From Bacteroidaceae bacterium (GTDB lineage Bacteria > Bacteroidota > Bacteroidia > Bacteroidales > Bacteroidaceae), in assembly GCA_017444485.1 (NCBI GenBank), contig JAFSWM010000066.1:1-59210 (forward strand): 59,210 bases of DNA. The letters are read 5' to 3'. Below are positions 728 through 30,076 of this stretch, piece after piece. Numbering within the stretch: the stretch's first letter is position 1; every line of letters begins with the position of its first letter. The notes below the pieces were generated by a model. That model made no database searches, had not been told where the DNA came from, and worked only from the letters and a program-made list of their open reading frames with translations. Both the position numbers and the translations under genes were made by a program.

Positions 728-1591
728 TTATTCGTCAAGGTCCATGGCGAGGCGCAGGCCGAGGATGTTCAGACCGTCGGCTGCAGGGTCGGAGGTGGCG
801 CGATAGGTGGTGCGACACTTTTCGGGCGGGAATGCCCAGCAGCCACCACGCACGATGCGCGACGAGCCAGACTGCGGGCCGAGCGGGTTGAAGACGGCGG
901 CGGAAGAAGGGTTGGCGGCGGAAGAAGTGGAATAGTAGTCTGACGCATACCAGTCGGAACACCACTCAAAGACGTTGCCGGTCATGTCGAAGAGGCCGAG
1001 TTCGTTGGGCTGCTTCTTGCCTACAGGATGCACGTCGTTCCCGCTGTTCTTGTCGTACCAGGCCACTTCGTTGATGTTGTTGCTGCCCGCATAGCGGTAG
1101 CGCTTGGATTGCTGCCCACCGCGTGCAGCATATTCCCATTCGGCCTCCGTAGGCAGACGGAACACGTGCCCGTTTTGGCGGATAGCGGGGTGCTGGTTGA
1201 GTTTTTGGATGAACGTATGCGCGTCTTTCCATGACACGTTGTAGACGGGTGTCTGCGGGTCTTCACCTGGGTCGGCAGGATTGCTGCCCATAACGGCAAC
1301 CCAAAGTTCCTGGGTGACCTCGTAGCGCCCGATGGCAAAAGAGGAGAGCCTGACGTTGTGCGGGGGAAGTTCATCGTCGTCGGCCACACCGTCTTGTTCT
1401 TGCGCCGCACCCATCACGAAGGTGCCGCCCTCCACCTTTTTCATCGATATCTTGGGCAGGCCGGCGAGAGCGACGGTAATGTTGCCCTCGGCGTCAGCAG
1501 TGATTGCTGACGAAGCGGGCGGATTTTCTGCCAGGGTAGCCGACAAGCACGTCAGCCACAGTGCGGCAAGCAGGGTAAGCGCGTTTTTCAT
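728..1591 (-). CDS. Exported SUMF1/formylglycine-generating-enzyme-fold protein
   Basis: This 287-residue protein starts at the ATG at 1591, which opens a typical signal peptide (MKNALTLLAALWLTCLSATLA); an in-frame ATG 51 bp upstream only adds a polar tail. The body is an FGE-sulfatase (SUMF1) domain: GGTFVMG near the start, EVTQELW, LPTEAEWEYAARGG, GLFDMTGNVFEW and a C-terminal VRGG...GLRLA. The cysteine pair of true formylglycine-generating enzymes is not at the usual spacing: here one Cys follows RGG directly and the next is eight residues on. I therefore read it as a structural or ligand-binding use of the fold in the periplasm. It is the last gene of the signalling cluster, 58 bp after a second SUMF1 protein. 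Confidence 0.85.
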   Translation of the reverse strand: MKNALTLLAALWLTCLSATLAENPPASSAITADAEGNITVALAGLPKISMKKVEGGTFVMGAAQEQDGVADDDELPPHNVRLSSFAIGRYEVTQELWVAVMGSNPADPGEDPQTPVYNVSWKDAHTFIQKLNQHPAIRQNGHVFRLPTEAEWEYAARGGQQSKRYRYAGSNNINEVAWYDKNSGNDVHPVGKKQPNELGLFDMTGNVFEWCSDWYASDYYSTSSAANPSSAAVFNPLGPQSGSSRIVRGGCWAFPPEKCRTTYRATSDPAADGLNILGLRLAMDLDE

Positions 1592-1649
1592 CGGTGAGTA
1601 AAGGTTTTGAGGTTTAGGATTTGGGACGCGGTATGTAGTCAAGGGCCAG

Positions 1650-2483
1650 TTACAAATCTACTGCCAGGCGGAAGCCCAGGTCGCTGGCACGGTAGGTGGC
1701 GGTGTCGGCGCGGCGGGCGGTGATGCGGATGTCGCGCAGCGCGCTGCGGTAGTTTCCACCACGATGCACGTACACGGCATTGCCCTCGGTCATACAGGGG
1801 TTTTCTTGAGGTAGGGACAGGTACTCAGTGTTTTTGTCTTGTACCCATTCAGAGACATTGCCCGACATGTCGTAAACGTCGAACGGCTCACTGATATACG
1901 CTTTCTTGCCCACTTCATGGACGCTGCCCGTGCTGTTTGCACCATACCAGGCTACTGCAGCTGCATCGTTGCTGCCAGCGTAGATAAAGTTGTTCCAACT
2001 TGAACCGCCGCGTGCAGCATATTCCCATTCGGCTTCGGTGGGGAGGCGGAAGGTGAGACCTTGTTCGCGGGTGGTAGGGAGGGCGTTGTAGCGACGCAGA
2101 AATTCCTGGCAGTCGTTCCAACTCACATTCGTGACAGGATACTGCTCGCCCTTGATGAACGAGGGATTGTTGCCCATGACGGCTTCCCAAAGTTCTTGTG
2201 TCACTTCTGTCTTTGCTATGGCGTATTTCTTGAGCGTGACTCGGTGCACGGGAAACTCGTTTCCGTAAGCATCGGGAGTGTTTTCTGCCGCACCCATATT
2301 GAACGAGCCGGCTTCCACCTTCTTGAGGTAAATAAGGGGAACATCCTTACTGGCGGCGATAAGAATGGTGCCGTCATTGAAGTGGCTGACGGGAGCGCTG
2401 TCGCCGTGGTGGAAGGAGAGGGCGGAGAAGGCCAAAACGCTACCCAAAAGGAGAGGCATGATGGGCGAGAGGAAAGTCTTCAT
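1650..2483 (-). CDS. Exported SUMF1/formylglycine-generating-enzyme-fold protein
   Basis: This 277-residue protein has an N-terminal hydrophobic export signal (MKTFLSPIMPLLLGSVLAFSALS) and a full SUMF1 domain: AGSFNMGAA, KTEVTQELWEAVMGNNPS, LPTEAEWEYAARGG, YDMSGNVSEW and HRGGNYR...GFRLAVDL. The segment after RGG holds no cysteine, so it cannot act as a copper-dependent formylglycine-generating enzyme. It is a divergent paralogue of the next gene and begins 27 bp after the stop of the Ser/Thr kinase, which suggests co-expression. SUMF1-fold proteins are often placed beside kinases in bacterial genomes; a sensor or adaptor role is inference. Confidence 0.85.
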   Translation of the reverse strand: MKTFLSPIMPLLLGSVLAFSALSFHHGDSAPVSHFNDGTILIAASKDVPLIYLKKVEAGSFNMGAAENTPDAYGNEFPVHRVTLKKYAIAKTEVTQELWEAVMGNNPSFIKGEQYPVTNVSWNDCQEFLRRYNALPTTREQGLTFRLPTEAEWEYAARGGSSWNNFIYAGSNDAAAVAWYGANSTGSVHEVGKKAYISEPFDVYDMSGNVSEWVQDKNTEYLSLPQENPCMTEGNAVYVHRGGNYRSALRDIRITARRADTATYRASDLGFRLAVDL

Positions 2484-2510
2484 AGAGTTATAGAGAAAGA
2501 ATAATGAGGG

Positions 2511-4142
2511 TTAGTCAATAACGGCCGCACGTTTACTTGGTGTCGTAGGCTTAGAAGGTGTTGATGATGTGCTGCCCCCGCTTCTTCCAGAATTTCTGGT
2601 GCTGCTGCCTCGGGTGTTGCGGGGTGTGGTATATCGCGTGGCTGTCTGTTGTTGTGCAGCAGCCCGCTGGGCTGCTTGTTGTTGTCGCAGCCGTTCTTGT
2701 TCGGCCTGAATGCGCTGTTGTTCGGCCAGTTGCTCTGCTTTCTGGATGGAATCTTGACGTGCGGCCAGGGCTGCGGCAGCGTCGGCCTCGGCCTGGTGCT
2801 CGGCACTGTCGGCCTTGGCGATGCTGTCGGCACGCAGACTGTCGGCCAGGGCAGTCGTTGGCTGCTCGGCGGGTGTCTCATTGTCGTCCCCACCGAAGAA
2901 CTTGAATCCGCCAAAAACGAGAAGCAGGGCCACCACAGCGGCTGCAACGAACACACCGATGCGTTTCTTGCCTGTTTCTTCTTCCGCGGTCTCTTGCTTG
3001 GACTGAGCGGGGGCTTTGCCTTTCGCAGCGTCGCCATCCTTTCCTTTCACGGCTACTTTGTTGGGCTGGTTCTTGCCCTTGCCGCCTTTGCCTTCGGCTG
3101 GTTTGACTACAACGGGCTTCTTGCCAGAGTCCTTGCTCGTCTCGGTGGTGTCGGCGGCGCTGGTGGCCTTGGGCGACAGGACAATCTTTGTCTCGGCGGT
3201 GACAGGCTCAGCGATTTTCTTCTTTTTGCTGGGCACCTCTGCGCCGCGTATCACGGCGAGCAGTTCGGGGGCGCTCTGCGGACGCATGGCACGCTGGGGG
3301 CGCATCATCCATACAACGAGTTTGCGCGTATGCTCCGAGATCTCATCGGGGAAGTCGAAGGCGTCCTCTTCGTCCTCAAGAATGTCCGACATGCTCGGCG
3401 GGGACTGCAGGGTGAGCAGGTTATAGAGCGTGCCGCCCACGGCATAGAAGTCGGTCCAGGGGCCGATGTTCTTGCCCAACTGGTTCACCTGCTCACTCGG
3501 TGCGTAGCCAGGGGTGTAGCAGAAGCCGCTCGTGGAGACGCTGATGGCGGAGTTCTTACCGGCCACCACTTGCTTGCTGGCGCCAAAGTCGATGAGTTTG
3601 GCGTTGCCGTCCTTGTCGAGCATGATGTTACCGGGCTTGATGTCCATGTGGTACATCTGCTGCGCGTGCACCACGCCGAGGGCATCCACCACTTTCTCAA
3701 TGATACTCAGCGCCTGCTCCTCCGTGTAGGCGCACTGCTCTTTCTTGAGGATTTCGCTGAGGCTCTTGCCATCAATGAAATCCATCACATAGTATGCTGT
3801 GCCGTTCTCTTCGAAGCGGTCGTGCACGCCCACTATGTTGGGGTGCTTGAGCAAGCGCAGGCGTTTAGCCTCGCGCCAAAACTTCTCCTTTTGTTCCTCA
3901 AATTGGTTCTTGTTCGTCTCGTTGCTGACGGATATGGAGAGGCTGTTGCTGTCGCGTTCGTTGATGCCACGGATAAAGAACTCCTTGACCACAACGATTT
4001 CGTTGTCGAATGTGGTGTCGGTGGCGATGTAGGTGTTGCCGAAGCCGCCGCTGGAGAGATACTTCTCTATGCGGTACTTGCCCCCGTGCAGGAGCGTACC
4101 TACCTGAAGCATCGACTTCATCAATATCTTTGAATCTGTCAT
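2511..4142 (-). CDS. Membrane-anchored Ser/Thr protein kinase (PknB/Hanks type)
   Basis: In this 543-residue protein residues about 21-300 form a Hanks-type kinase: glycine loop SSGGFGNTY (30-38), ATP-binding Lys53, catalytic loop HMDIKPGN (166-173; Met replaces the Arg of HRD) and DFG at 187-189. All catalytic residues are present, so it should be active. A basic, Pro/Lys-rich linker leads to one membrane helix at about 396-416. The outer part (420-543) starts acidic, continues as an Ala/Gln/Glu/Arg coiled-coil-like stretch and ends Ser/Thr-rich, with no PASTA repeats. It forms the writer of a set with the PP2C phosphatase upstream in the same operon, which has the same inside-TM-low-complexity layout. 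Confidence 0.93.
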   Translation of the reverse strand: MTDSKILMKSMLQVGTLLHGGKYRIEKYLSSGGFGNTYIATDTTFDNEIVVVKEFFIRGINERDSNSLSISVSNETNKNQFEEQKEKFWREAKRLRLLKHPNIVGVHDRFEENGTAYYVMDFIDGKSLSEILKKEQCAYTEEQALSIIEKVVDALGVVHAQQMYHMDIKPGNIMLDKDGNAKLIDFGASKQVVAGKNSAISVSTSGFCYTPGYAPSEQVNQLGKNIGPWTDFYAVGGTLYNLLTLQSPPSMSDILEDEEDAFDFPDEISEHTRKLVVWMMRPQRAMRPQSAPELLAVIRGAEVPSKKKKIAEPVTAETKIVLSPKATSAADTTETSKDSGKKPVVVKPAEGKGGKGKNQPNKVAVKGKDGDAAKGKAPAQSKQETAEEETGKKRIGVFVAAAVVALLLVFGGFKFFGGDDNETPAEQPTTALADSLRADSIAKADSAEHQAEADAAAALAARQDSIQKAEQLAEQQRIQAEQERLRQQQAAQRAAAQQQTATRYTTPRNTRGSSTRNSGRSGGSTSSTPSKPTTPSKRAAVID

Positions 4143-4161
4143 ATAGGGTCTTGACGTTGGT

Positions 4162-5202
4162 CTATAAATTCTTGTCCTTCTTATTTATTAGGTTGCGGAT
4201 GTTTTCTTCGGATATATTGCTGTTTGCAGGTGTGCTATCAGAATAAGACTGACTAATGTTGTTGAGCGTATTCCCTTGTTCTGCCGCGTCTATCTTTTGC
4301 AGTTCCGCCTTTGCCTCAGGAATGTGGCAGGCTTCTGCAATGAGGAGGTGCTCACGGGCTTTTTTCGTGTTCTTCTCATAGCCGCAATACGCGTTGGCGT
4401 AACACACGCCGATGTACCAGGCCGCGTAGCCCGCTGACAGCGAGTCGGTGGCGATACCTTCCAAAGCGGTTCCCAAGTACTGCTTGACACGGGCGTGCGT
4501 GTTTGCATACTTACTGTTATAGTAGTAAATGCCCAAGGCCAGGTTGGCGCCAGGATGTTTTTGCCAGGCGGCCTGCTCGTAATAGAAGCGCATGGCTGCG
4601 GTATCCTTCTTCTCTGCAGGAGTCTTCAGTTCTATGCACAGGGCATAGCGGTAGCGGGACTCTACAAACAGTTCAGGGTCGTCAAGATAGGGGATGCTGT
4701 CGAACAGTTTGCTATAGAGCCCCTTGGCTTTTTCCACGTCGCGCACGAAGCCGCCGTATCCGAACTCGTAGCACCAGGCCTCACCGAAGACGTCCTTAGG
4801 CTCGGCTGTGGCTGCTTTGTAGAAATACTGGTGGGCGACGGAGTCCTTTGATTCGGGAATGCTCTTGTTGCGCAGGAAGAAGGCGGCTTTGCGGTATGCC
4901 ATCGGGGTGGCTTCCTCGTCAGCCCATTTCATCTTGTACCTTCTTGCCGCGTCTCTATCTGTCTCTCGGAGTTCTTCTGACATCTTGAGGTAGAACGCCG
5001 ACAGTCGCTTGTGCGCATCGGCATGGCCGGCTTCTTTGGCCAACCGCCAATAATGCTCAATAGAATCCCTGCAGCCGTCTGCTTTTTCAAGGCTGTCTGC
5101 CATCTGGAAGCAGGCCTCGCCGTCATTGGGGGCTTGCGCCCACACCCGCGGGAAGCCCATCGCAAAGCCGATTGCTAAGAGTGCAAACAAGAAACGTTTC
5201 AT
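4162..5202 (-). CDS. Exported Sel1/TPR-like repeat protein
   Basis: This 346-residue protein has a clear signal peptide (MKRFLFALLAIGFAMGFPRVWAQ). Most of the rest is helical repeats of Sel1 type; examples are HYWRLAKEAGHADAHKRL near residue 50, FYYEQAAWQKHPGANLALG near 230 and CGYEKNTKKAREHLLIAEA further on. The last 40 residues are polar. Such repeats are protein-interaction scaffolds and no enzyme motif is seen. It lies between the PP2C phosphatase (41 bp upstream) and the kinase (19 bp downstream), so it may scaffold or be sensed by the extracytoplasmic tails of those two proteins; this is inferred from position only. Confidence 0.75.
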   Translation of the reverse strand: MKRFLFALLAIGFAMGFPRVWAQAPNDGEACFQMADSLEKADGCRDSIEHYWRLAKEAGHADAHKRLSAFYLKMSEELRETDRDAARRYKMKWADEEATPMAYRKAAFFLRNKSIPESKDSVAHQYFYKAATAEPKDVFGEAWCYEFGYGGFVRDVEKAKGLYSKLFDSIPYLDDPELFVESRYRYALCIELKTPAEKKDTAAMRFYYEQAAWQKHPGANLALGIYYYNSKYANTHARVKQYLGTALEGIATDSLSAGYAAWYIGVCYANAYCGYEKNTKKAREHLLIAEACHIPEAKAELQKIDAAEQGNTLNNISQSYSDSTPANSNISEENIRNLINKKDKNL

Positions 5203-5243
5203 TCGTGGAAGTATGGTTTGTTGGGTTAGTTCTGAGTAGTCTC

Positions 5244-6878
5244 TTATTGCCTACTGGGTGCGGTCGGAGGCGTTTGTCTTCCCGAGGACGATGTGGTTGA
5301 CGTAGGAGTGCTGGGGGCGGAAGTTTGCTGCTGTTGCTGTGTTTGTGGCGGAGTTGTGCTTGTTCCTGTAGGTTTACCAGATTCTAAAGTGGGCTTATCT
5401 CCTCCATTGCCATTTGAAGCGTTAGATCCTGATGAGGACCGCCCTGATGGCGTAGGGGTTCTTTGATTCTGCTCTTGCTGTGGTTGTGTGGTCGTAGAAT
5501 TTTGTGTCGGCTTAGATGGTGTGGAGGACGATGTGGAACTTGAACTTGAACTGCGGGTGGCATTGCCTTGCGCATTCGGACGGGAAATGGCATTTTCCAC
5601 TTCGTTCGGTATGCTGGGAGTTGGCCTGTTGAGGGGTGTTTCCACACCTGTGCCACCTGACGAATGGGTGCTTCTTACTGGTTCCACGGTGGGGGTTTCC
5701 TCGGCAGAAGAGGTGCTGGAGCCTTTATCACTGAGGAAGTAGTATGCAATGCACCCTATGGCCACCATAAACATGATGCCGAGTGCCACACCGAGTAGCG
5801 CGCTGCTTTTGTTTGACGATGCAGTTTTGGGTGCTGCCTCGTGCTTGCTGTGATTCACCGCGAGCGTTTGCGAAGGCATAGCCTCCACATAGTTTTGCAC
5901 GCGCCTGCCGCCTGGCCGAGGAGAAATGGAGGCAGCGGGAGCCGGAGTGGGCTCTGGCTTATGCTCCGGAGCAGGTGTTGGCGGCGGTGCGACTGCTTGG
6001 GCTTGTTCGGGTGCAGGACCGCTGACGAGGGAGATGTCATCGTAGTTGCGCGGCACGATGTTTATGGCGTTGCAACGGCTGGTGTCTTCGTCGTGAAGCA
6101 GTGCCTTGTCGCCCTCTTCGGCAGCCACGGAGGCTACTTTCAGCAGGTAGGCCGTGTGGTTGTCTTTGTTCTCAATAGTCCTGTCGAGCAGTATTTGTAT
6201 CTTGTCCGCGTCGGGCATATCGGCTGAAACGATCTGTACCAGTTCGTCGTCTTCCATCACTTCGAGCATGCCGTCTGAGCAGAGGTAGAAATAGTCTCCT
6301 GGCATCACGTCGGTGGTGTGAGCGATGGATAGTTCCACACGGTTTTCTTCCCCGGGCATCAGTGCGCGTGTGATGATGTTCTTCCGGCGGTCGGTCTTCA
6401 TCTCCTCGTAGGTGATCTCGCCGGCCTGGTACATGTCGTACACCAACGAGTGGTCGCGCGACTTATAAAGCGGCATGGTTTGCCCTGGGCGTATGTGGTA
6501 GATGCGACTGTCGCCGGCGTGTGCCATCGTGACACCTCCTTTATGGAAGCACACCAGGGTGAGGGTGGTGCCCATCTTCTTGAACGCGCCATCGTCGGCA
6601 GCATCAAGTTTGGTGTAGGCATAGGCCAGTGCTCCTGTGAGCACGCTGTCGTCCACGATGTCAGTATAGACAGCCTTGGCCGAGAAATACTCATCGAAGG
6701 CGCGGCACACGGTGCCGCTGGCCACTTCGCCGCCGGAATGGCCGCCCATGCCATCGCAGACGAGGAACAGGCGTGTCTCGGCTGTTGCCATGTTGTCTGC
6801 CGGCAGGAGACTGTCTTCCTGGTTGTCCCTTTGCCCTATGTGATGAATGAAGTGAGGTTCGTGAAGTTGGATTTTCAT
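5244..6878 (-). CDS. Membrane-anchored PP2C-type Ser/Thr phosphatase
   Basis: In this 544-residue protein residues 1-250 form a PP2C domain with the metal-binding motifs GQRDNQED (15-22), CDGMGGH (41-47), HAGDSR (120-125), SDG (201-203) and DN at 239-240, so it should be active on phospho-Ser/Thr. A Pro-rich linker, one membrane helix (about 360-382) and a long Ser/Thr/Gln/Pro low-complexity tail outside the membrane follow. It is the eraser matching the kinase two genes downstream. Its ATG is 14 bp from the stop of the FHA-like zinc-ribbon gene, consistent with one transcript. Confidence 0.93.
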   Translation of the reverse strand: MKIQLHEPHFIHHIGQRDNQEDSLLPADNMATAETRLFLVCDGMGGHSGGEVASGTVCRAFDEYFSAKAVYTDIVDDSVLTGALAYAYTKLDAADDGAFKKMGTTLTLVCFHKGGVTMAHAGDSRIYHIRPGQTMPLYKSRDHSLVYDMYQAGEITYEEMKTDRRKNIITRALMPGEENRVELSIAHTTDVMPGDYFYLCSDGMLEVMEDDELVQIVSADMPDADKIQILLDRTIENKDNHTAYLLKVASVAAEEGDKALLHDEDTSRCNAINIVPRNYDDISLVSGPAPEQAQAVAPPPTPAPEHKPEPTPAPAASISPRPGGRRVQNYVEAMPSQTLAVNHSKHEAAPKTASSNKSSALLGVALGIMFMVAIGCIAYYFLSDKGSSTSSAEETPTVEPVRSTHSSGGTGVETPLNRPTPSIPNEVENAISRPNAQGNATRSSSSSSTSSSTPSKPTQNSTTTQPQQEQNQRTPTPSGRSSSGSNASNGNGGDKPTLESGKPTGTSTTPPQTQQQQQTSAPSTPTSTTSSSGRQTPPTAPSRQ

Positions 6879-6892
6879 ATCTTAGAAGGAAC

Positions 6893-7450
6893 TTATTGTT
6901 GTTTTGACGAATAGGTAAAACGTGTGTTGTGTGCCACAATGGAACTGTTGTCGCGTAGCACGATCTCGTCCCCGTACATCACGGGCAGGTTGTCCACGAA
7001 TGTGGGACTGACTCCTTGCTTGTGCAGGGTTAAGGTGACGAGGAACGACTCGTCGGTGCGCTTGCGGACATTGATGTCAAAATGCTCTTTCGACACCCCT
7101 TTGTCAGCGGGGAATTGGTGCTGAGCGTTGGATGCCGGCGAGAGCCTTCCGCAGGAGTTCTTCCCCTCGTGGAGCAGGCTGGCCATGCCGTTGCAGAAGA
7201 GTGTGCCAGGTGTGAGCGGCCAGCGGGTGGTGGGGGGCAGGACGGTGGCGGTGGACTTGGGCTTAGCGACCATTTCTGTTTTGGCCTCCACTGCTTCGTG
7301 GAATTTCACGGAGAGACGCTGGTGACACTTGGGGCATTCGATGAGTATCTGCGGGAGATTCTTGCTGTTGCTCACCGTCAGCCGCGTGTCGCAACTCGGG
7401 CAGCGCACGTTTTTCTTGTCCTGGTAGATGATTTCCGGACTATTAGGCAT
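6893..7450 (-). CDS. Zinc-ribbon protein with divergent FHA-like domain
   Basis: This 185-residue cytoplasmic protein (no signal or TM) begins with a zinc ribbon of two CPxC knuckles (CPSC about residue 18, CPKC about 39). A short linker leads to a C-terminal half with FHA-like landmarks: a CGR turn, GVSKEHFDI (the Ser-x-x-His core of FHA phosphothreonine binding), YGDEIVLRD and a closing strand. The FHA match is partial, so phosphothreonine binding is likely but not certain. It sits directly upstream of the PP2C gene and is one of two FHA-type proteins in the cluster, the probable readers of kinase phosphorylation. Confidence 0.65.
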   Translation of the reverse strand: MPNSPEIIYQDKKNVRCPSCDTRLTVSNSKNLPQILIECPKCHQRLSVKFHEAVEAKTEMVAKPKSTATVLPPTTRWPLTPGTLFCNGMASLLHEGKNSCGRLSPASNAQHQFPADKGVSKEHFDINVRKRTDESFLVTLTLHKQGVSPTFVDNLPVMYGDEIVLRDNSSIVAHNTRFTYSSKQQ

Positions 7451-7505
7451 AAGGGGCTACGTTTTGGAATTTAGGAAAGGGGGTGTGGCTTCCCCGCCCA
7501 GGGTT

Positions 7506-7784
7506 TCAGCCTTTGGCGGGAACGATGAAACTGACGCGCAGGGGCTTTTGGCAGGCGGGACACTCAAACTGCCGATAGGGCTTGTCGGCACGATTGTGCA
7601 CCCGCAACACACTGCCGCAGCCAGGGCACTGTACGCGAACTTTGTCGAGGAGAGGGGGATTGAATTTTACCATGAGGCGCGTGCTGCATTTGGGGCAGGC
7701 AAAGCGCTTGACGGGTTCGTTCTTGTTGTTTGCCACTTCAAGCACCGTGTTGCACTTGGGGCAGGCCACTCTTTTTGTCTCCAT
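7506..7784 (-). CDS. Small protein with two zinc ribbons
   Basis: This 92-residue protein carries four CPxC knuckles in two ribbon-like pairs: CPKC and CPKC in the first half, CPGC and CPAC in the second. It has no export signal. The N-terminal part closely resembles the ribbon of the next protein (6893-7450), so the two may have arisen by duplication. Zinc ribbons of this kind bind protein or nucleic acid; no specific function can be assigned. It lies inside the signalling operon, 55 bp upstream of the FHA-like gene. Confidence 0.75.
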   Translation of the reverse strand: METKRVACPKCNTVLEVANNKNEPVKRFACPKCSTRLMVKFNPPLLDKVRVQCPGCGSVLRVHNRADKPYRQFECPACQKPLRVSFIVPAKG

Positions 7785-7908
7785 GTGGTTATAGATGGTT
7801 TTTGTGGTTTAACAAATGTATGAAAAGCGTTTTTTTATCTGACACCTTTGCGCCCGGCCGTCCTTCAATGGGGCGTGCCGGGTGTGGTGTTCGGACTTGG
7901 TGGGTGTG

Positions 7909-8670
7909 TCAGTAGCGGAGCACCACCATGTTCTTGGGGAAGTTGCCCCACATCACGGGATGCTGCTGATGTCCGCCGGCACGGTCGCGGGCGTAGTCAG
8001 CCACATTCTTGCTGACGTAGTTGAATAGTTCCACAGCACTGATGGCACGGTCGTGGTTGATGTCCGCTGCGCCACGCATGGCTTTTTCCAAGAAGTAGGC
8101 GAACAGGCCGTGCTTGAGTCCCGGGGTTTCAAGCGAGGTCTCGTTGGTGCGAGAGGAGAGGAAGAGCATGATGTTCTTTGCCGACTGCTGACGTTGGGCG
8201 GTGTTGGTACGCGCTTTGCCAGCGTAGCAGGCGTCAGCGAAGATACACTTCGTTTTGGCTTTGCTCCTTTTCATTATTGCGTAGATGCGCTCGTATTTGA
8301 GATTCCCGTCGTAGGCGCAGAAAGCCCCTTTCTGTCCGTGTCCGCTGAAGAAGAGGATGATGACATCGCGCTCGGTGGCCTTGCTGAAAAGGTCGCTGAT
8401 GTTGGCCAGGATGTTGTTTATCGTGGCGCGTTGGTTCAACACCAGTCGAGCTGTGGCGTGTGCGCTATTGGCATAGACCTGCGCGATGCTGCGTGCGTCG
8501 GCGTCGCAGAAGTTGAGGTCGTTGATAGTGCCGGGATAGTCGGCCACACCTACGGCCACGATGTAAATGTGGCCGCCGCTGGCCTGCGTAGGAAGCAGGC
8601 GCGTCCCGGCCTGTGCGGTAAGCGCGCAGGTCAGGACGCAGAGCAACATGAGGGAAATGGTTTTCTTCAT
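7909..8670 (-). CDS. Exported caspase-fold (C14-type) peptidase
   Basis: This 253-residue protein has a signal peptide of about 21 residues (MKKTISLMLLCVLTCALTAQA), so it is periplasmic or secreted. The body is a caspase p20-type domain: IYIVAVGVADYPG, then FFSGHG with catalytic His111, then FADACYAG with catalytic Cys148. Both dyad residues are present. It ends in a short HDRAISAVELFNYVSKN segment common to bacterial caspase-like proteins, with no separate C-terminal binding domain. Bacterial C14 enzymes usually cut after Arg/Lys or Asp; the specificity is not readable here. It is transcribed with two acidic membrane proteins upstream and the kinase/phosphatase genes downstream, which makes those proteins or the SUMF1 proteins candidate substrates or regulators. 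Confidence 0.9.
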   Translation of the reverse strand: MKKTISLMLLCVLTCALTAQAGTRLLPTQASGGHIYIVAVGVADYPGTINDLNFCDADARSIAQVYANSAHATARLVLNQRATINNILANISDLFSKATERDVIILFFSGHGQKGAFCAYDGNLKYERIYAIMKRSKAKTKCIFADACYAGKARTNTAQRQQSAKNIMLFLSSRTNETSLETPGLKHGLFAYFLEKAMRGAADINHDRAISAVELFNYVSKNVADYARDRAGGHQQHPVMWGNFPKNMVVLRY

Positions 8671-8746
8671 ACTTGCTTGATTGTTTTGTGCCGCAGTCTT
8701 TCAAGCCTATTTTGGCGGCACGGGGATGATCCGGTTCGGGAGATGT

Positions 8747-9961
8747 TCAGGCCATCATATCAACGTTGGCGTCGTTGATGAAGTCGTCCATGCCGTCGGA
8801 GGAGGCGTTGTCGGCCACATAGACTTCGGGGTCGTCGAAGGAGACGGGGTCGTCAGCCGGCATGTCGTCGGTGTTCTCAGCGGTGTAGAGGCCGTCGTTT
8901 TCATATTCGCCGCTTACTTCAGGATCGTCAAAGGTGACGGGGTCGGTCTCTACCACTTGTACGTTCTCGGCGCCGGGCTCTTCGATGTCTACAAACATGT
9001 CGTCGCTTTCGCCATTGCCATCTTCAACGTATCCGCCGTCGCGACTTACAATCACGATTTCGTCGTCGTCGAACTGTCCGTTGTCGTTGTAGTCAATGCC
9101 GTACATGTCCACTTCGCCATCGTGGTCGGTATCAACGAACATCCCATAGTGTCCGTCCACCTCGGCGTCTACCACGTCCACCATCTCGCCTTCCATCTCC
9201 ACGGTGCGGCTGCCGATGATGCGTACACCATCGTCTCCGTCAGTCCCTTCACTCTGCACAGTTTCATAGTTTGCCACGTTCTCGTTGGGATCTACTTCGC
9301 CGGTGGTGTGCCCACCTGCTGCTGCGGCATGTCCACCTTGAGCGCCTTGCGCTGCGGGTGCGTGTTCGGGTGCGGGGCCGTGGGGGTGGTGATGGTCGTG
9401 ATGATAGTGATGCACCTCGTGTACTTCATGTACGGTGGTGGAAGCGGGCTGAGCGGATTGGCTTGCACCGCCGCCATATTGACTCATGGCCTCGTCGGTG
9501 AAGGCTGCGCGGTCTTCCGGACTCATCGCTGCCCATTCGTCCTGCGTGTAGGTGCCATAGACACCACCGCGCCATACGAATACGCCACCAGGGCCTACTT
9601 GATTGCGTGCTGCCTCGAAGGCGTCGGCAAAGGACATGTTGTCGTTCACGGAGGCCATCTGCATGCTGTCGCCTTGTTCGGCGGTGGCGTCCTGTATGTG
9701 GTCGCCGAGGCTTTCTTCGCTGCCGGCGATGGCTTCGCCTGCGAACATCATGCCTGCGCCGAGTGCGCCGCCACCCACAACGCCTGCTCCAACCTTGGCG
9801 GCCAGGTTGCCTTTGCCTTTCTTGGCCTCTTCGGGAATGGGCTGCTCGTAGCCGGGCTCCTGATAGGGTTCCGTTGGATCATACTGGGGCTGCTGGCCCA
9901 TATAACCGTTGTTCTGGTTCATGTTGGTGAAAACGGTGCTGTCGTCGTTGTAAGGTTTCAT
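8747..9961 (-). CDS. Acidic single-TM protein with His-rich and Ca-loop-like segments
   Basis: I take the ATG at 9961 (MKPYNDDSTVF, 404 residues) because the longer frame runs back into the promoter. Layout: a polar cytoplasmic N-terminus, a Lys-rich stop and a Gly/Ala-rich membrane segment at about 53-75, then a long acidic domain. That domain has a stretch of about 15 residues mostly His, and D-x-D-x-D-G type loops (DTDHDGEVD, DYNDNGQFDDDE) like EF-hand or dockerin calcium loops. It ends GMDDFINDANVDMMA, almost identical to the end of the upstream paralogue (10203-11171). No known family was recognised. A role as an envelope metal or calcium sensor, or as substrate of the kinase or caspase, is inference. 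Confidence 0.7.
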   Translation of the reverse strand: MKPYNDDSTVFTNMNQNNGYMGQQPQYDPTEPYQEPGYEQPIPEEAKKGKGNLAAKVGAGVVGGGALGAGMMFAGEAIAGSEESLGDHIQDATAEQGDSMQMASVNDNMSFADAFEAARNQVGPGGVFVWRGGVYGTYTQDEWAAMSPEDRAAFTDEAMSQYGGGASQSAQPASTTVHEVHEVHHYHHDHHHPHGPAPEHAPAAQGAQGGHAAAAGGHTTGEVDPNENVANYETVQSEGTDGDDGVRIIGSRTVEMEGEMVDVVDAEVDGHYGMFVDTDHDGEVDMYGIDYNDNGQFDDDEIVIVSRDGGYVEDGNGESDDMFVDIEEPGAENVQVVETDPVTFDDPEVSGEYENDGLYTAENTDDMPADDPVSFDDPEVYVADNASSDGMDDFINDANVDMMA

Positions 9962-10003
9962 AGTTGTGATGTGTTTAGGAGTTAGATTTGTTGTTTGACA
10001 CTG

Positions 10004-10036
10004 CAAAAGTAGTGAGGGCTACCGCCCGTTTCCAAA
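10004..10036 (-). promoter_or_regulatory. Promoter of the 8747-9961 acidic-protein gene
   Basis: On the minus strand TTTG (10033-10036) and TACTTTTG (10004-10011) are separated by 21 bp, matching the Bacteroidota sigma consensus, about 43 bp before the start codon. The layout is duplicated base for base at the paralogous gene. Confidence 0.75.
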
Positions 10037-10047
10037 TGTTTTTCTGG

Positions 10048-10082
10048 TTTCGGTATGAAATGCGGGGTTTTCGGTATGAAAT
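10048..10082 (-). promoter_or_regulatory. Paired 14-bp direct repeats, candidate LytTR operator
   Basis: Two identical copies of ATTTCATACCGAAA (minus strand; 10048-10061 and 10069-10082) have a 21-bp period and end 11 bp upstream of the -33 box. Direct repeats two helical turns apart are the known mode of LytTR-domain DNA binding, and a LytTR gene lies about 2 kb upstream in the same cluster. Confidence 0.65.
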
Positions 10083-10202
10083 GTTCGCGGGGCGGCGGTT
10101 ATTCCACTTTTTGCGTGTCTTGGCTGTCAATGGGTGGGAACTTTGCCCGTTGTCTGTGATCTGCGTCCTATTATATATAATATGGAGTGTGCCGTCTTTG
10201 TT

Positions 10203-11171
10203 TTAGGCGAGCATGTCCACGTTGGCGTCGTTCACGAAGTCGTTCATCCCGTCGTCGGAGGGAACGTCGGCCACGTAGGGTTCGGGATCGGAGCCGCCGT
10301 TGTCCACCACGTCGTTGGCGGGGTCGTATTCGGGGAGTACTTCGTCGTACTGGGGCGTGTCTGTGCCTGTGTTTTCGGCAACCACCACGTCGTTGTCGCC
10401 TCCGATAACAAGTTCGTCATTACCTTCCATGCTCACGTTCTCTGCCACGAGGGTATCGTTCTCGTTGCCTTGGGGCAGTTCGTCGTGAGCCACCATGATG
10501 CCGTCGGTATCGGTAACTTCTCCGGTAACCTCTTGTGCGGCTAGAATTGTGCCTTCGTTGCTGGCATCGGGAACGTCGGTGTTGAGAGCTGTGAGCGGCG
10601 CGATGTCAGCGTTTTCAGGCACGTCGTGTACTTGTACGAAGTGGCCGGTCTCTTCGTTCCATTCCACGTGCTCGGCTCCAGAGAGATAGGTTAGACCTTC
10701 TTCGGGATGATCGCGGAGGTATTCCACGTCGTATTGTCCGTCGAGGTTCACGTCGAGTTGCACGTGCATCTGTCCGTCGTCGGCCAGATAGTCGTGACGA
10801 TAAACCACGTCGCCGTTAGGCAGGCGCACGAAGCGTCCTTCGTCCTGGTTGACGTAATCGTTGTCATTGGCGGGCTTTGCATCGTGGTGTACCTCTTGCG
10901 TATGGCGTACCACATGCACGGGCTGTGCGGGTTCTGCTTGCGTGTCGGTGGCTTCCACTACGGGTTGTGCTTCACCTTCTCCCGAACTGAGAATCCAGGC
11001 TGCGATTGCGCCAACGGCAAGTCCGGCTCCTGCGCCTCCGGCCACATAGCCGACGTTGCTATTCTTTTCGCTGTTCTTCACGTTGTCTTGTGCTGCATTG
11101 TTTTCGGCAGTTGCTTCAAACGTGGGCTGCTCGGGCTGAGCATACATGGTGCTGTCGTTGTAAGTCTCCAT
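10203..11171 (-). CDS. Acidic single-TM protein, paralogue of 8747-9961
   Basis: The start is set at 11171 (METYNDSTMYA, 322 residues); the open frame extends further upstream but only through its own promoter. A polar N-terminus of about 39 residues is followed by a Gly/Ala-rich membrane helix at about 40-62 and an acidic extracytoplasmic domain. This contains a VRHTQEVHHD segment and a DVNLDGQYD loop resembling a calcium-binding loop, and a C-terminus GMNDFVNDANVDMLA shared with its paralogue. The N-terminal YNDxST motif is also shared. The two genes have near-identical promoters with the same paired repeats, so they are probably co-regulated. No database family was recognised. Confidence 0.7.
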   Translation of the reverse strand: METYNDSTMYAQPEQPTFEATAENNAAQDNVKNSEKNSNVGYVAGGAGAGLAVGAIAAWILSSGEGEAQPVVEATDTQAEPAQPVHVVRHTQEVHHDAKPANDNDYVNQDEGRFVRLPNGDVVYRHDYLADDGQMHVQLDVNLDGQYDVEYLRDHPEEGLTYLSGAEHVEWNEETGHFVQVHDVPENADIAPLTALNTDVPDASNEGTILAAQEVTGEVTDTDGIMVAHDELPQGNENDTLVAENVSMEGNDELVIGGDNDVVVAENTGTDTPQYDEVLPEYDPANDVVDNGGSDPEPYVADVPSDDGMNDFVNDANVDMLA

Positions 11172-11218
11172 GGTTTTACAAGTTTTTTTGGTTGGGTTAG
11201 AATTTCTGTTTGACACTG

Positions 11219-11251
11219 CAAAAGTATGCCGCGCCGCCTGGCGTTTCCAAA
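11219..11251 (-). promoter_or_regulatory. Promoter of the 10203-11171 acidic-protein gene
   Basis: Minus-strand TTTG (11248-11251), a 21-bp spacer and TACTTTTG (11219-11226), about 48 bp before the start codon. It matches the promoter at 10004-10036 in boxes and spacer length. Confidence 0.75.
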
Positions 11252-11262
11252 TGTTTTGTCGC

Positions 11263-11297
11263 TTTCGGTACGAAATGGCGGGGTTTCGGTATGAAAT
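11263..11297 (-). promoter_or_regulatory. Paired 14-bp direct repeats, candidate LytTR operator
   Basis: Copies at 11263-11276 and 11284-11297 read ATTTCGTACCGAAA and ATTTCATACCGAAA on the minus strand, period 21 bp, 11 bp upstream of the -33 box. This is the same arrangement as at 10048-10082, one base different in one copy. Confidence 0.65.
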
Positions 11298-11337
11298 ACT
11301 TATGCAGACTATGGTGCGGGCGGGAATTGGCTTGTTT

Positions 11338-12063
11338 TTAGGTGATGAAGCGCGATTTACAGTTCTGGCAATTGTGGCGAGCTGCAAGCATGGCATAGTC
11401 TATGTTGCCGAAAGGTGTGCGACAGTCGGGATTGGGACAGACATAGCGCGCCATAAACTCCCTCTTGAGTTGATCCAGCATGATGGGGTATTTCTCCGCG
11501 TCTTTGTTGCCGGTGATGAAGAAGTAGATGGTGGCGATGATGCCCAGGAGCATGAACACAGCAACGATAATTCCTTTTGTAGTGTCGGGCAGGCCGGGTA
11601 TTACAAGCGGGAGCACGGCTCCCAGTACACCGCCGGTCATGGTGAACGCGGGAAGCAATCGGGCTTTTTGCTGCGCCTTGTTTCGTTCTATGTTGATCTC
11701 GCGCTGACGGTTCTGATACTCTTCCCAGACGTACTTTAGCGGTCTGATGTCTACGTATTGGGGGATGAGGCCAGCCTTTTTGATGGCTCCCCAGTCCAGT
11801 TGTTGGCGGTCGGTGCCCATATAGATGTTGTCGCCGAAGAGCACATGGTAGCGCACCACGGGCACGTCCCTCACATAGGTGACGTTCGACGCGTTGAGGT
11901 TAGTGAGGATAAAATGCGTGCCGTCCTCACTTTCTAACGAGAGGTGGTCCTTGCTCACCATCGGCGAGAGGCCCTGTGTGCCTTTCACCACTTGCAGCCT
12001 GCCGCCGTCCACGCTGGCTTTCAGACATCCGCTGGCTGGGTCGCGGCCTATTACTATCTTCAT
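11338..12063 (-). CDS. FHA-domain membrane protein with C-terminal zinc ribbon
   Basis: This 241-residue protein has residues 1-85 as an N-terminal FHA domain: IGRDP at the first strand, SKDHLSL as the Ser-x-x-His core, an Asn in NLNASNVT and FGDNIYMG. A basic helical stretch (about 108-130) leads to two membrane helices (about 133-156 and 160-183). The tail, predicted back in the cytoplasm, ends in a zinc ribbon with CPNPDC and NCQNC knuckles. It is a probable reader of phosphothreonine at the inner membrane, matching the kinase and phosphatase downstream. Its stop lies 166 bp before the acidic-protein gene and its start 42 bp after the LytTR gene. Confidence 0.85.
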   Translation of the reverse strand: MKIVIGRDPASGCLKASVDGGRLQVVKGTQGLSPMVSKDHLSLESEDGTHFILTNLNASNVTYVRDVPVVRYHVLFGDNIYMGTDRQQLDWGAIKKAGLIPQYVDIRPLKYVWEEYQNRQREINIERNKAQQKARLLPAFTMTGGVLGAVLPLVIPGLPDTTKGIIVAVFMLLGIIATIYFFITGNKDAEKYPIMLDQLKREFMARYVCPNPDCRTPFGNIDYAMLAARHNCQNCKSRFIT

Positions 12064-12105
12064 CTTTATACTATAAACGTTAAGGGTATGTTGGTCGGGG
12101 AGTGC

Positions 12106-12474
12106 TTATCTCTTCACTTGCAGCATCAGTTCGCGGAGCCGTTTGAGTGCTTCCTTGCTGATGGAAAGTTGGAACACGAAGTGGTCGTTGTCGCTCAGCA
12201 GCAGGCTCTGGTTGCGCAGGTTGATGCGGTAGATGTATTCCAAGTTCACGATGTAGCGCTTGCCGATGCGCACAAAGCGCTGGGCCATCTCGCCGGTTTG
12301 CTTGGCCAGGAACTGCTCCATGGCGGCGAGGTTCATCGAGACGGTGGCTTTGAGTTTGTTCACGGTGACCACTTCGGTGAAGTTGGCGGCGGCCTCTATG
12401 TACACTACCTTTGCCAAGTCCACGCGAAGCAGTTCGTCGCGTCCGTTGAAGTAAACAAGGTTTGTGGAGGGCAT
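12106..12474 (-). CDS. Stand-alone LytTR DNA-binding regulator
   Basis: This 122-residue protein consists of a LytTR domain only, without a receiver domain: VVYIEAAANFTEVVT in the first third and FVRIGKRYIVNLEYI at about residues 67-81, the signature of the AgrA/LytR DNA-binding fold. Without a receiver its control is probably by abundance or partner binding. It is the first gene of the cluster and the obvious candidate to bind the paired 21-bp-period repeats ahead of both acidic-protein promoters. No such repeats were seen ahead of this gene, so autoregulation is not indicated. Confidence 0.9.
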   Translation of the reverse strand: MPSTNLVYFNGRDELLRVDLAKVVYIEAAANFTEVVTVNKLKATVSMNLAAMEQFLAKQTGEMAQRFVRIGKRYIVNLEYIYRINLRNQSLLLSDNDHFVFQLSISKEALKRLRELMLQVKR

Positions 12475-12569: not shown

Positions 12570-12577
12570 CAAATTTA
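12570..12577 (-). promoter_or_regulatory. Candidate -7 box of the LytTR gene
   Basis: Minus-strand TAAATTTG fits TAnnTTTG, 95 bp before the LytTR start; no good -33 box is seen. The opposite strand carries the plsC promoter region about 125 bp away. Confidence 0.4.
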
Positions 12578-12701
12578 ACAATTTTTTGATAGTTTGGCCT
12601 CTTGCGGGCCTTTTTTGTCGCTTTTCCCAATTTTTTTTGGATTTGGAGTTTGTTTGTGCCGCTTTTTGGGGCGATTGTTTTCGGCAATACGGCGGCTTTT
12701 G

Positions 12702-29233: not shown

Positions 29234-30076
29234 ATGAAAAACCTTCTGAGATTATTCCTTCCTGCTCTTTGCGCACTGACGCTTGCCGCTTGTGGTGGCA
29301 CCAGCAAGGGCGATGCCAACGCTGCCGACAGCATCTCTTCCGATCCCTTCGCCGCTGCTGCGGGCGAAACCGCCATCACGGTGAACGACAGCCTCCAGCC
29401 CCTCGTCTTCGTGACGGTCAAGGGCAGCACTTTCGATATGGGCGACCCCAACGGCACCACCCACGACGATGAAATCAGCGAGACGCCCGCCCACAAAGTC
29501 ACCGTAGGCGATTTCAATATCTGCAAGATCGAGGTGACGCAAGAGGTGTGGCAGGCCGTGATGGGCAAGAACCCCTCCCACGAAACCGACGACCCGCTGA
29601 AACCCGTGGAGAACGTGTCGTGGAACGACACGCAGGAGTTTGTCAAGAAACTCGGCCAACTCACTGGCCACGAGTTCCGTCTGCCTACCGAGGCTGAGTG
29701 GGAATATGCAGCGCGCGGCGGCTCTAAGAGTAAGGGCACGCGCTATGCTGGTGGCGACGACCCCGACGAGGTGGCCAACTTCCATGCTGAGGGCAACCCC
29801 AATGCCGGACGCACCGCCACGGTGGGTATCTTTAAGCCCAACGAACTTGGTCTGTTCGACATGAGCGGCAACGTGGCCGAGTGGGTGCAGGACTGCTATG
29901 CCCCCTACAAGGCTGAAGCGCAGACCGACCCTTGTGTCACCACTGGCGACTACCACGTCTATCGCGGTGGCCACTGCAATAAGGACGCTGTAGATTGTCC
30001 GCTCACCGTTCGCATGAAGTTCGCTCCCGTGATGCCCGCTTCGAGCATCGGACTGCGCCTCGTGCTGGTCAAGTAA
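29234..30076 (+). CDS. SUMF1-fold lipoprotein
   Basis: This 280-residue lipoprotein (MKNLLRLFLPALCALTLAACGG; the start at 29234 fits the signal) has a complete FGE-sulfatase domain: KGSTFDMGDP, KIEVTQEVWQAVMGKNPS, FRLPTEAEWEYAARGG, LGLFDMSGNVAEWVQD and YRGGHCNKDAVDC...GLRLVLVK. Two Cys follow RGG but six residues apart, not the CxxxxC of true formylglycine-generating enzymes, so enzyme activity is doubtful. It resembles the two cluster proteins at 728-2483 but stands alone with its own terminator. A TAAATTTG box at 29199-29206 could be its -7 element. Confidence 0.85.
   Translation: MKNLLRLFLPALCALTLAACGGTSKGDANAADSISSDPFAAAAGETAITVNDSLQPLVFVTVKGSTFDMGDPNGTTHDDEISETPAHKVTVGDFNICKIEVTQEVWQAVMGKNPSHETDDPLKPVENVSWNDTQEFVKKLGQLTGHEFRLPTEAEWEYAARGGSKSKGTRYAGGDDPDEVANFHAEGNPNAGRTATVGIFKPNELGLFDMSGNVAEWVQDCYAPYKAEAQTDPCVTTGDYHVYRGGHCNKDAVDCPLTVRMKFAPVMPASSIGLRLVLVK

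Follow-up and report, generated by a model that had tools for sequence, protein, structure and literature searches.

A conserved kinase, phosphatase, FHA and LytTR gene module with acidic membrane proteins and a predicted exported metacaspase-like peptidase in a Bacteroidaceae genome and its relatives

Twelve open reading frames (ORFs) on the minus strand fill positions 728-12474 of the stretch of DNA analyzed here (the window: 59,210 nt of Bacteroidaceae bacterium, GenBank assembly GCA_017444485.1, contig JAFSWM010000066.1), and together they belong to one conserved signalling module that is not confined to a single strain. In the order of transcription they encode a LytTR regulator, an FHA-membrane protein, two acidic membrane proteins (acidB and acidA), a caspase-fold peptidase, a zinc-ribbon protein, a zinc-ribbon FHA protein (Zn-FHA), a PP2C phosphatase, a Sel1-like protein, a Ser/Thr kinase and two SUMF1 proteins (SUMF1b and SUMF1a), with intergenic gaps of 14-76 bp except before acidB (166 bp), acidA (241 bp) and the zinc-ribbon gene (124 bp). 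The original prediction, made from the letters of the sequence, had described twelve co-directional genes with these domains, and the ORFs together with the Pfam matches (LytTR, FHA, Peptidase_C14, Pkinase, PP2C_2, FGE-sulfatase) confirm it. The genes are as follows.

12106-12474, minus strand: LytTR DNA-binding regulator without a receiver, 122 aa, P0012 (PF04397, 1.2e-11)
11338-12063, minus strand: FHA-membrane protein with FHA domain, two-transmembrane (TM) hairpin and C-terminal zinc ribbon, 241 aa, P0011 (PF00498, 4.4e-5)
10203-11171, minus strand: acidB, acidic membrane protein, 322 aa, with N-terminal NDST and C-terminal tag (no Pfam family at E 0.01)
8747-9961, minus strand: acidA, acidic membrane protein, 404 aa, with N-tail, Gly/Ala-rich membrane stretch, GPGG domain, Asp-rich loops and C-terminal tag (no Pfam family at E 0.01)
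7909-8670, minus strand: predicted exported caspase-fold peptidase C14, metacaspase-like, 253 aa, with His111, Cys148 and Asp146 (PF00656, 2.5e-18)
7506-7784, minus strand: small double zinc-ribbon protein, 92 aa (domain calls)
6893-7450, minus strand: zinc-ribbon plus FHA protein, 185 aa, P0006, putative cytosolic reader (weak alone, family residues conserved)
5244-6878, minus strand: PP2C phosphatase, one TM (360-378 by hydropathy scan), low-complexity predicted outer tail, 544 aa (PP2C_2, 1.2e-10)
4162-5202, minus strand: predicted exported TPR/Sel1-like accessory protein, 346 aa, P0004 (weak AlgK TPR match)
2511-4142, minus strand: Ser/Thr kinase, one TM (395-413), low-complexity predicted outer tail, 543 aa, P0003 (PF00069, 8.9e-41; K53, D167 and D185 conserved)
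1650-2483, minus strand: SUMF1b, predicted exported SUMF1/C-lectin-fold protein (PF03781, 1.5e-39)
728-1642, minus strand: SUMF1a, predicted exported SUMF1/C-lectin-fold protein (PF03781, 8.9e-49), the likelier start being an internal ATG at 1591

Scanning GTDB contigs with the caspase alignment yielded 77 loci, whose genes were labelled with profiles built in this analysis; because many of these loci end at contig ends, the counts are lower bounds. Their titles place nearly all of them in Bacteroidales or Bacteroidia, mostly as metagenome-assembled genomes, with one titled Holophagaceae, two titled only 'bacterium', and the cultured Leyella stercorea, Segatella copri and Xylanibacter rarus among them. 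Best labels were obtained for the caspase in 76 loci, the FHA-membrane protein in 65, Zn-FHA and the acidic protein in 64 each, the kinase and PP2C in 61 each, LytTR in 58, SUMF1 in 18 and the Sel1-like protein in 2. Conserved neighbourhoods of the kinase and caspase with the acidic proteins, which the original prediction had proposed as a check, are thus present: kinase, PP2C, Zn-FHA, FHA-membrane, acidic and caspase genes stand together in 46 of the 77 loci, 41 of which also carry LytTR. The usual order is LytTR, FHA-membrane, acidic, caspase, Zn-FHA, PP2C and kinase(s), and the strand of the caspase is shared by 106/109 kinase, 62/63 PP2C, 67/68 Zn-FHA, 67/68 FHA-membrane, 77/78 acidic and 57/59 LytTR genes. 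LytTR lies directly before the FHA-membrane gene in most loci that have both, as it does in the window at a distance of 42 bp. SUMF1, TPR-like, LRR-like and small exported proteins are variable extras; in seven loci (L056, L058, L059, L074, L088, L090 and L107) an LRR-type-related exported protein, of which one representative was read, and a small exported coiled-coil-like protein form a pair between two acidic genes.

Anchoring the search on the FHA-membrane protein returned similar gene sets (32 stretches, at least five of them loci already among the caspase-anchored ones). This protein is found in 9 of 61 near-relative genomes, own genome included, all of the same genus. Among 251 genomes of the family the caspase (E 1e-20) occurs in 31 and co-occurs with the FHA-membrane protein in 28 (one of the pair alone in 4 and 3, neither in 216; Fisher 1.4e-29), a comparison for which 40 FHA matches were cut to 32 by excluding eight genomes with short FHA-only matches, and in which the caspase set includes two longer proteins (G158 and G247). 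The acidic protein coincides with the FHA-membrane protein in 26 of these genomes (1 and 6 alone) and with the caspase in 22 (5 and 9 alone). This conservation and co-occurrence excludes chance adjacency, and the possibility that the cluster is restricted to this strain is rejected, since the module is present in many related bacteria. The cultured Leyella stercorea DSM 18206 carries LytTR through PP2C on a 5.8-kb contig. On a plasmid of Runella rosea (NZ_CP030851.1, Cytophagales; L247), VWA, FHA, acidA-like, FHA, PP2C and caspase genes lie in a row, and the product of the acidA-like gene has retained the GPGG domain as well as a Thr within the sequence EKTQIF. In the residue-conservation, upstream-repeat, tag and charge counts that follow, a duplicate filter dropped both copies of L014/L102, L017/L104 and L018/L126 and one of L012.

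A sigma-70 promoter scan was set aside, Bacteroides promoters being described in the available passages of PMC7366714 as TTTG plus TAnnTTTG. The promoter elements predicted in the window are listed here.

12570-12577, minus strand: -7 box TAAATTTG before LytTR, no 21-bp repeat upstream
11270-11296, minus strand: direct repeat TTTCAT-15N-TTTCGT, putative LytTR-type operator of acidB, 0 mismatches
11219-11226, minus strand: -7 box TACTTTTG of acidB
10055-10081, minus strand: direct repeat TTTCAT-15N-TTTCAT, putative LytTR-type operator of acidA, 0 mismatches, from the period-21 test
10004-10011, minus strand: -7 box TACTTTTG of acidA
7813-7820, minus strand: -7 box TACATTTG before the zinc-ribbon gene, no repeat

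Because -7 boxes stand before LytTR and the zinc-ribbon gene without a repeat, and before acidB and acidA with one, the gene set is probably split into several transcripts. The description of the cluster as headed by LytTR has to be narrowed: LytTR is first in gene order but probably does not head a single operon; split transcription, which had been named as a ground for regarding the genes as unrelated, is partly true for the predicted promoters, whereas the unrelatedness is contradicted by conservation. Pairs of TTTCRT at period 21 are found in 38 of 81 acidic-gene upstreams, with at most 7 at any other period from 8 to 40; among 469 other labelled genes the period-21 count is 11 and no other period exceeds 5. 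With two mismatches allowed, 45 acidic genes have a pair, 40 of which are followed by TAnnTTTG, and in 39 of these the box lies 48 or 49 bp after the second repeat. The TTTCRT pattern was written after inspection; in 24 held-out upstreams period 21 was seen in 13 and other periods in at most 2, with 12 of 15 pairs at 48-49 bp. The LytTR regulatory systems treated in the available passages of PMC6193735 have 9-bp repeats with a 12-bp spacer just before the promoter, and because the geometry is the same we read the acidic-gene repeats as putative LytTR-type operators. LytTR appears to control the promoters of the acidic-protein genes and not to head a single operon.

Within this genome ATTTCRT-14N-ATTTCRT has three exact matches, before acidB, before acidA and on contig C25, where the pair sits inside a 105-aa reading frame of the other strand with no -7 box at the right distance. 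The relaxed pair together with the promoter pattern is found at acidA, at acidB and at an orphan site on contig C102 (L285 5470; G000:C102:17469-17545), where the repeat and a TACTTTTG promoter have no convincing same-strand gene downstream and may represent a relic or a small RNA. In a relative of the same genus (G018) a third site, at about 1501-1578 of L250 (C21), lies directly before a distal Ser/Thr kinase gene, and this operator-promoter suggests a wider LytTR regulon. Upstream of LytTR genes the enriched k-mers were largely AT-rich, and no motif emerged. Genomes without a full-length FHA-membrane match, for example G246, G083, G109 and G116, have near-perfect TTTCRTACA-type direct repeats with promoters, and other LytTR regulons may share the box.

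The acidic proteins share an N-tail, a Gly/Ala-rich hydrophobic stretch, a conserved GPGG/W/Y domain, Asp-rich loops and a conserved C-terminal tag; no Pfam family is common to them, the most frequent, DUF7167, matching 3 of 39 weakly. Because Lys and Arg are more frequent on the N side of the hydrophobic stretch in 75 of 82 acidic proteins, the short N-tail is predicted to face the cytosol and the acidic tail to face out. The original prediction, which had proposed kinase assays on these proteins, changes on this point: only the short N-tail, with its one conserved threonine, is predicted to face the kinase, and the acidic tail is predicted outside. The residues concerned are listed below.

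11148-11150, minus strand: acidB Thr8 codon, candidate phospho-Thr (alignment A3)
9935-9937, minus strand: acidA Thr9 codon, candidate phospho-Thr for FHA docking (T in 38/39 rows of alignment A4)
8750-8797, minus strand: acidA C-terminal tag region, residues 389-404, DDFIND, consensus PDYxND (D393 in 38/39 rows)

The threonine lies in a conserved N-terminal motif, N-[DE]-x-T-[IV]. In alignment A4 (P0009 plus 38 of 45 references, at least 45 being available, loci after L092 being absent, and 7 second-copy rows having been left out by hand) an acidic residue stands at -2 in 37 of 39 rows and mean column identity is 19%; the 38/39 figure for Thr9 overstates conservation over all acidic proteins. 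A pattern written post hoc matches 54 of 79 acidic proteins and 30 of 823 other ORFs. In a held-out matrix test on the 25 of 31 acidic proteins with less than 80% identity to the training set, 14 reached the 99th percentile of 245 control ORFs, as did 5 of 194 other labelled proteins. The N-terminal threonine is likely, on these patterns, to be a phospho-Thr docking site for the FHA proteins.

Of the two FHA-type readers that had been claimed, the FHA-membrane protein stands on its Pfam match, and P0006 falls below the Pfam cut-off alone (17.7 bits against 20.7), yet its family keeps the FHA residues: G101, R102, S120 and H123 of Zn-FHA are kept in 64-67 of 67 rows. Across the 69 rows of the FHA-membrane family G6 is kept in 68, R7 in 55 (with K in 13), S37 in 65, H40 in 69, N60 in 59 and T62 in 64; TM segments are placed at 137-155 and 165-183, and the zinc-ribbon cysteines C209, C214, C232 and C235 are conserved. 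Given the usual roles of such residues in FHA domains, we take the conserved ones to form the phospho-Thr pocket. R30 and S46 of Fha serve as the comparison residues for that pocket, as given in the available passages of PMC3953482. The kinase and PP2C catalytic residues are conserved across their families, and the shared design proposed for the two enzymes (enzyme inside, a single TM, a low-complexity outer tail) agrees with the hydropathy scan.

The caspase has a hydrophobic N-terminus and is predicted to be exported; both catalytic residues, as anticipated, are present, His111 and Cys148 being invariant across 72 rows. Among PDB entries the caspase is closest to GSU0716 and metacaspases, followed by legumains and one caspase-3. 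Asp146, two residues before Cys148, is found in 95% of the 72 caspase rows and aligns with the DSC motif of metacaspase-4 and GSU0716 (alignment A5 comprises P0008 and 56 of 60 caspases). Since an Asp two before the Cys is part of the S1 pocket in metacaspases that cut at Arg/Lys, the enzyme is predicted to be metacaspase-like with Arg/Lys specificity. The acidic ectodomain contains 13.4% Asp, 9.3% Glu, 1.5% Arg and 0.6% Lys; with so little Lys and Arg it would serve an Arg/Lys cutter poorly as bulk substrate, and a role as scaffold or regulator of the caspase fits its composition better. Arg119, a well-conserved basic residue of this ectodomain (34/39 rows), was considered as a metacaspase cleavage site and dropped, being also kept in the caspase-less loci L015 and L011/L019. 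The tag pattern PDYxND, likewise written after inspection and outside the held-out tests, which cover the Thr motif and the repeat, is present in 67 of the 80 acidic proteins from caspase loci against 9 of 2199 control ORFs, the controls being every unlabelled frame of at least 100 aa, many of them spurious. Of 82 acidic proteins, 65 contain the motif D-x-[DN]-x-[DN]-G, as do 29 of these 2199 ORFs, and because of this enrichment calcium binding by the acidic proteins is plausible.

The SUMF1 proteins P0001 and P0002 may, as the original prediction held, be unable to act as formylglycine-generating enzymes, the active-site cysteine pair appearing incomplete when read by eye against the expected motif. 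Elsewhere in the genome, at G000:C23:1-3336 (L280), a kinase-SUMF1 fusion is followed by a second LytTR gene at the contig end, perhaps a truncated second copy of the module. At 5218-10080 of L284 (G000:C30:7000-20000) lies a diversity-generating retroelement with a reverse transcriptase (PF00078) and an HRDC protein; its 142-nt template and variable repeats (7414-7555 and 9175-9316) differ at template adenines in 19 of 31 positions that differ in a 155-nt comparison, the variable repeat ends a SUMF1 gene, and a Ser/Thr kinase of the same family adjoins. Because of the kinase-SUMF1 fusions and of this retroelement varying a SUMF1 protein near a related kinase, the SUMF1 proteins are candidates for outer sensors. 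At window positions 29835-29901 a match of 68 columns to the 3' part of SUMF1a, with 81% identity, perhaps marks a further SUMF1-type gene. The Sel1/TPR scaffold proposed for P0004 held up weakly, with zero Pfam matches at E 0.01 and one NCBIfam match to AlgK TPR (E 1.4e-4). Downstream of the cluster, the gene at 2-433 that runs off the contig is, we presume, phosphoenolpyruvate carboxykinase-like, and of the divergent upstream genes the one at 12602 is presumably acyltransferase-like and the other Fkp-like.

These features can be assembled into a transmembrane phospho-relay, a reading we hold to be evenly poised, in which a kinase/phosphatase switch on the acidic protein would be read by FHA domains and would gate both LytTR and the exported metacaspase; its topology, phosphorylation, docking, LytTR release, caspase control and direction of signalling we infer from sequence. 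Outside signals, probably met by the SUMF1/TPR-type exported proteins or by the outer tails of the enzymes, would set the balance of kinase against PP2C, and the two would act on the N-tail threonine, Thr9 of acidA and Thr8 of acidB. The FHA domains of the FHA-membrane and Zn-FHA proteins may then dock the phosphorylated N-tail, and the engaged FHA-membrane protein, which we propose as a partner or inhibitor of LytTR, would release or activate its neighbouring regulator as in LytTR regulatory systems. LytTR would bind the 21-bp-period repeats and switch on the acidB and acidA promoters, with the caspase possibly expressed by read-through. In the weakest step, the tag-tipped and nearly Lys/Arg-free acidic ectodomain would meet the metacaspase-like peptidase outside the membrane as scaffold, regulator or substrate. 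A precedent for a kinase, an N-terminal threonine of a membrane protein and an FHA reader is TssL Thr14, according to the passages available of PMC3953482. That one molecule carries the signal across the membrane both to genes and to a protease, and that this defines a new class of Bacteroidota signalling system, is a tentative and rather doubtful extension. Envelope stress, calcium sensing and a programmed response, the functions floated in the original prediction, are unproven.

Several observations weigh against the phospho-relay. The membrane stretch of the acidic proteins is weak and Gly/Ala-rich, a mean hydropathy of 1.3 being reached in 59 of 82 (soluble controls 3/68 and 3/60). In the held-out threonine test 11 of 25 acidic proteins fail, six of them short copies of 186-242 aa; of the five longer failures, L136 and L150 do have a Thr in a similar setting. 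The relaxed repeat with promoter, by hand count, is present in 25 of the 32 genomes whose FHA-membrane match is full-length but also in 86 of 219 others, the genome has a second LytTR gene, beside the kinase-SUMF1 fusion, and LytTR's own upstream mostly lacks the repeat (4/60 with one mismatch allowed and 7 with two, the window having none). Some loci lack the caspase, LytTR or the kinase, and a Parabacteroides distasonis record has the same core with no caspase annotated. Among six genomes with the acidic tail in view and no close caspase, whose assemblies are 78-89% complete, the tag is absent in G035, G012 (which has one weak caspase-type match, 4.2e-9), G293 and G249 and kept in G200 and G222, and a tie between tag and caspase is only a suggestion. 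In the caspase-less Parabacteroides distasonis version (L246, 5773-6027) acidA is replaced by an 84-aa acidic protein whose gene stands between FHA genes.

The leading alternative, in our judgement unlikely, is a LytTR regulatory system with phospho-signalling as a parallel input, in which the FHA-membrane protein reads the autophosphorylated kinase and the threonine has another role, such as an interaction motif. FHA readers often bind phospho-sites of kinases themselves, and the FHA-membrane protein and kinase are seen together without an acidic protein in L016 (a 4.8-kb contig) and L020; it is the single threonine in an acidic context, held at near invariance in an alignment of such low mean identity, that is hard to explain other than as the need of an FHA ligand.

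Two further alternatives we regard as quite improbable. A defence by abortive infection or programmed death, with the caspase set free by kinase signalling, would account for the patchy presence of the caspase (31/251 genomes), and systems of this sort often contain caspase-fold peptidases and kinases. PADLOC kinase-type models do match the kinase, but across many models at once, as a generic kinase domain would, and these matches were set aside as evidence of a defence system; the PADLOC caspase model matches weakly (3.9e-7), the caspase is predicted to be exported, away from the compartment of phage replication, and none of nine recurring extra gene clusters looks, by eye and with no domain search, like a partner of the STAND, nuclease or pore type. 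A secretion or surface machine under threonine-phosphorylation control, like that of PpkA/PppA/Fha over the type VI secretion system (T6SS), would suit the kinase, PP2C and FHA trio and the exported SUMF1, TPR-like and LRR-like proteins nearby. The T6SS sheath marker VipB (PF05943), however, is found in 0 of 10 genomes with the module or part of it, the E. coli control genome being positive, which rules out membership of the T6SS pathway, and by eye no secretion-machine gene is among the recurring extra clusters. That the genes are adjacent but unrelated, as several predicted promoters within the set might hint, is scarcely credible and is refuted at the level of conservation by order and strand kept in dozens of loci and by the strong co-occurrence.

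To our knowledge few partners are known for the Ser/Thr kinase and caspase-type genes found in Bacteroidales of the gut and rumen, and the roles of bacterial metacaspases are largely unknown. For one widespread gene set the module offers a predicted phospho-site with its probable readers, together with a promoter code and a protease as candidate partner, and the phospho-relay, if true, would tie bacterial metacaspases to a defined circuit. The module is present in cultured strains, in Leyella stercorea DSM 18206 and, without the caspase, in Parabacteroides distasonis.

No description of the full gene set was found among the papers listed from the openly available literature (titles and starts of abstracts, with subscription journals and preprints outside the scope), in line with the expectation that it is not an already described system. 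Its parts resemble several known ones, each compared here through the passages available of the source cited. In LytTR regulatory systems (HdrRM and BrsRM of Streptococcus mutans; PMC6193735) a receiverless LytTR gene is likewise directly followed by a membrane-protein gene, and direct repeats of 21-bp period likewise lie just upstream of the promoter; here, by contrast, the membrane partner combines FHA, two TMs and a zinc ribbon, a kinase, phosphatase and caspase are added, and the repeats mainly precede the acidic-protein genes and not the LytTR gene, so that the repeat expected of autoregulation is missing. The prokaryotic metacaspases surveyed in PMC3501461 share the caspase fold with His/Cys, an N-terminal signal or TM and a frequent place in operons, whereas those passages contain no FHA/kinase/LytTR operon and 'FHA' is absent from the main text. 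The kinase-kinase-phosphatase (KKP) module (PMC11341870) also brings kinase(s), PP2C and FHA into one cluster, but it is prophage-encoded, its FHA is fused to a kinase, and 'caspase' is absent from the text (LytTR was not looked for there); KKP is defined by two kinases, one with FHA and one with a cold-shock domain, plus PP2C, and the window has one kinase, with no FHA or cold-shock match on it. Kinase, FHA and FGS(SUMF1)-type domains are also among the effectors of the conflict systems of PMC7159879, a paper that mentions caspase 28 times, but these systems are built on vWA-MoxR or GTPase cores, and no vWA, MoxR or GTPase Pfam match was found among the twelve proteins at E 0.01 or 0.1 (for P0007, among the best 25 of 47 families); a VWA gene does adjoin the Runella version of the module. 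The T6SS threonine-phosphorylation pathway (PpkA/PppA/Fha; TssL Thr14, PMC3953482) offers a membrane kinase, a PP2C, an FHA reader and an N-terminal threonine of an inner-membrane protein, which in our module is a candidate; here the candidate target is the acidic protein, and LytTR and a caspase belong to the set. We file the module as kinase/PP2C/FHA signalling of a known kind in a new variant form.

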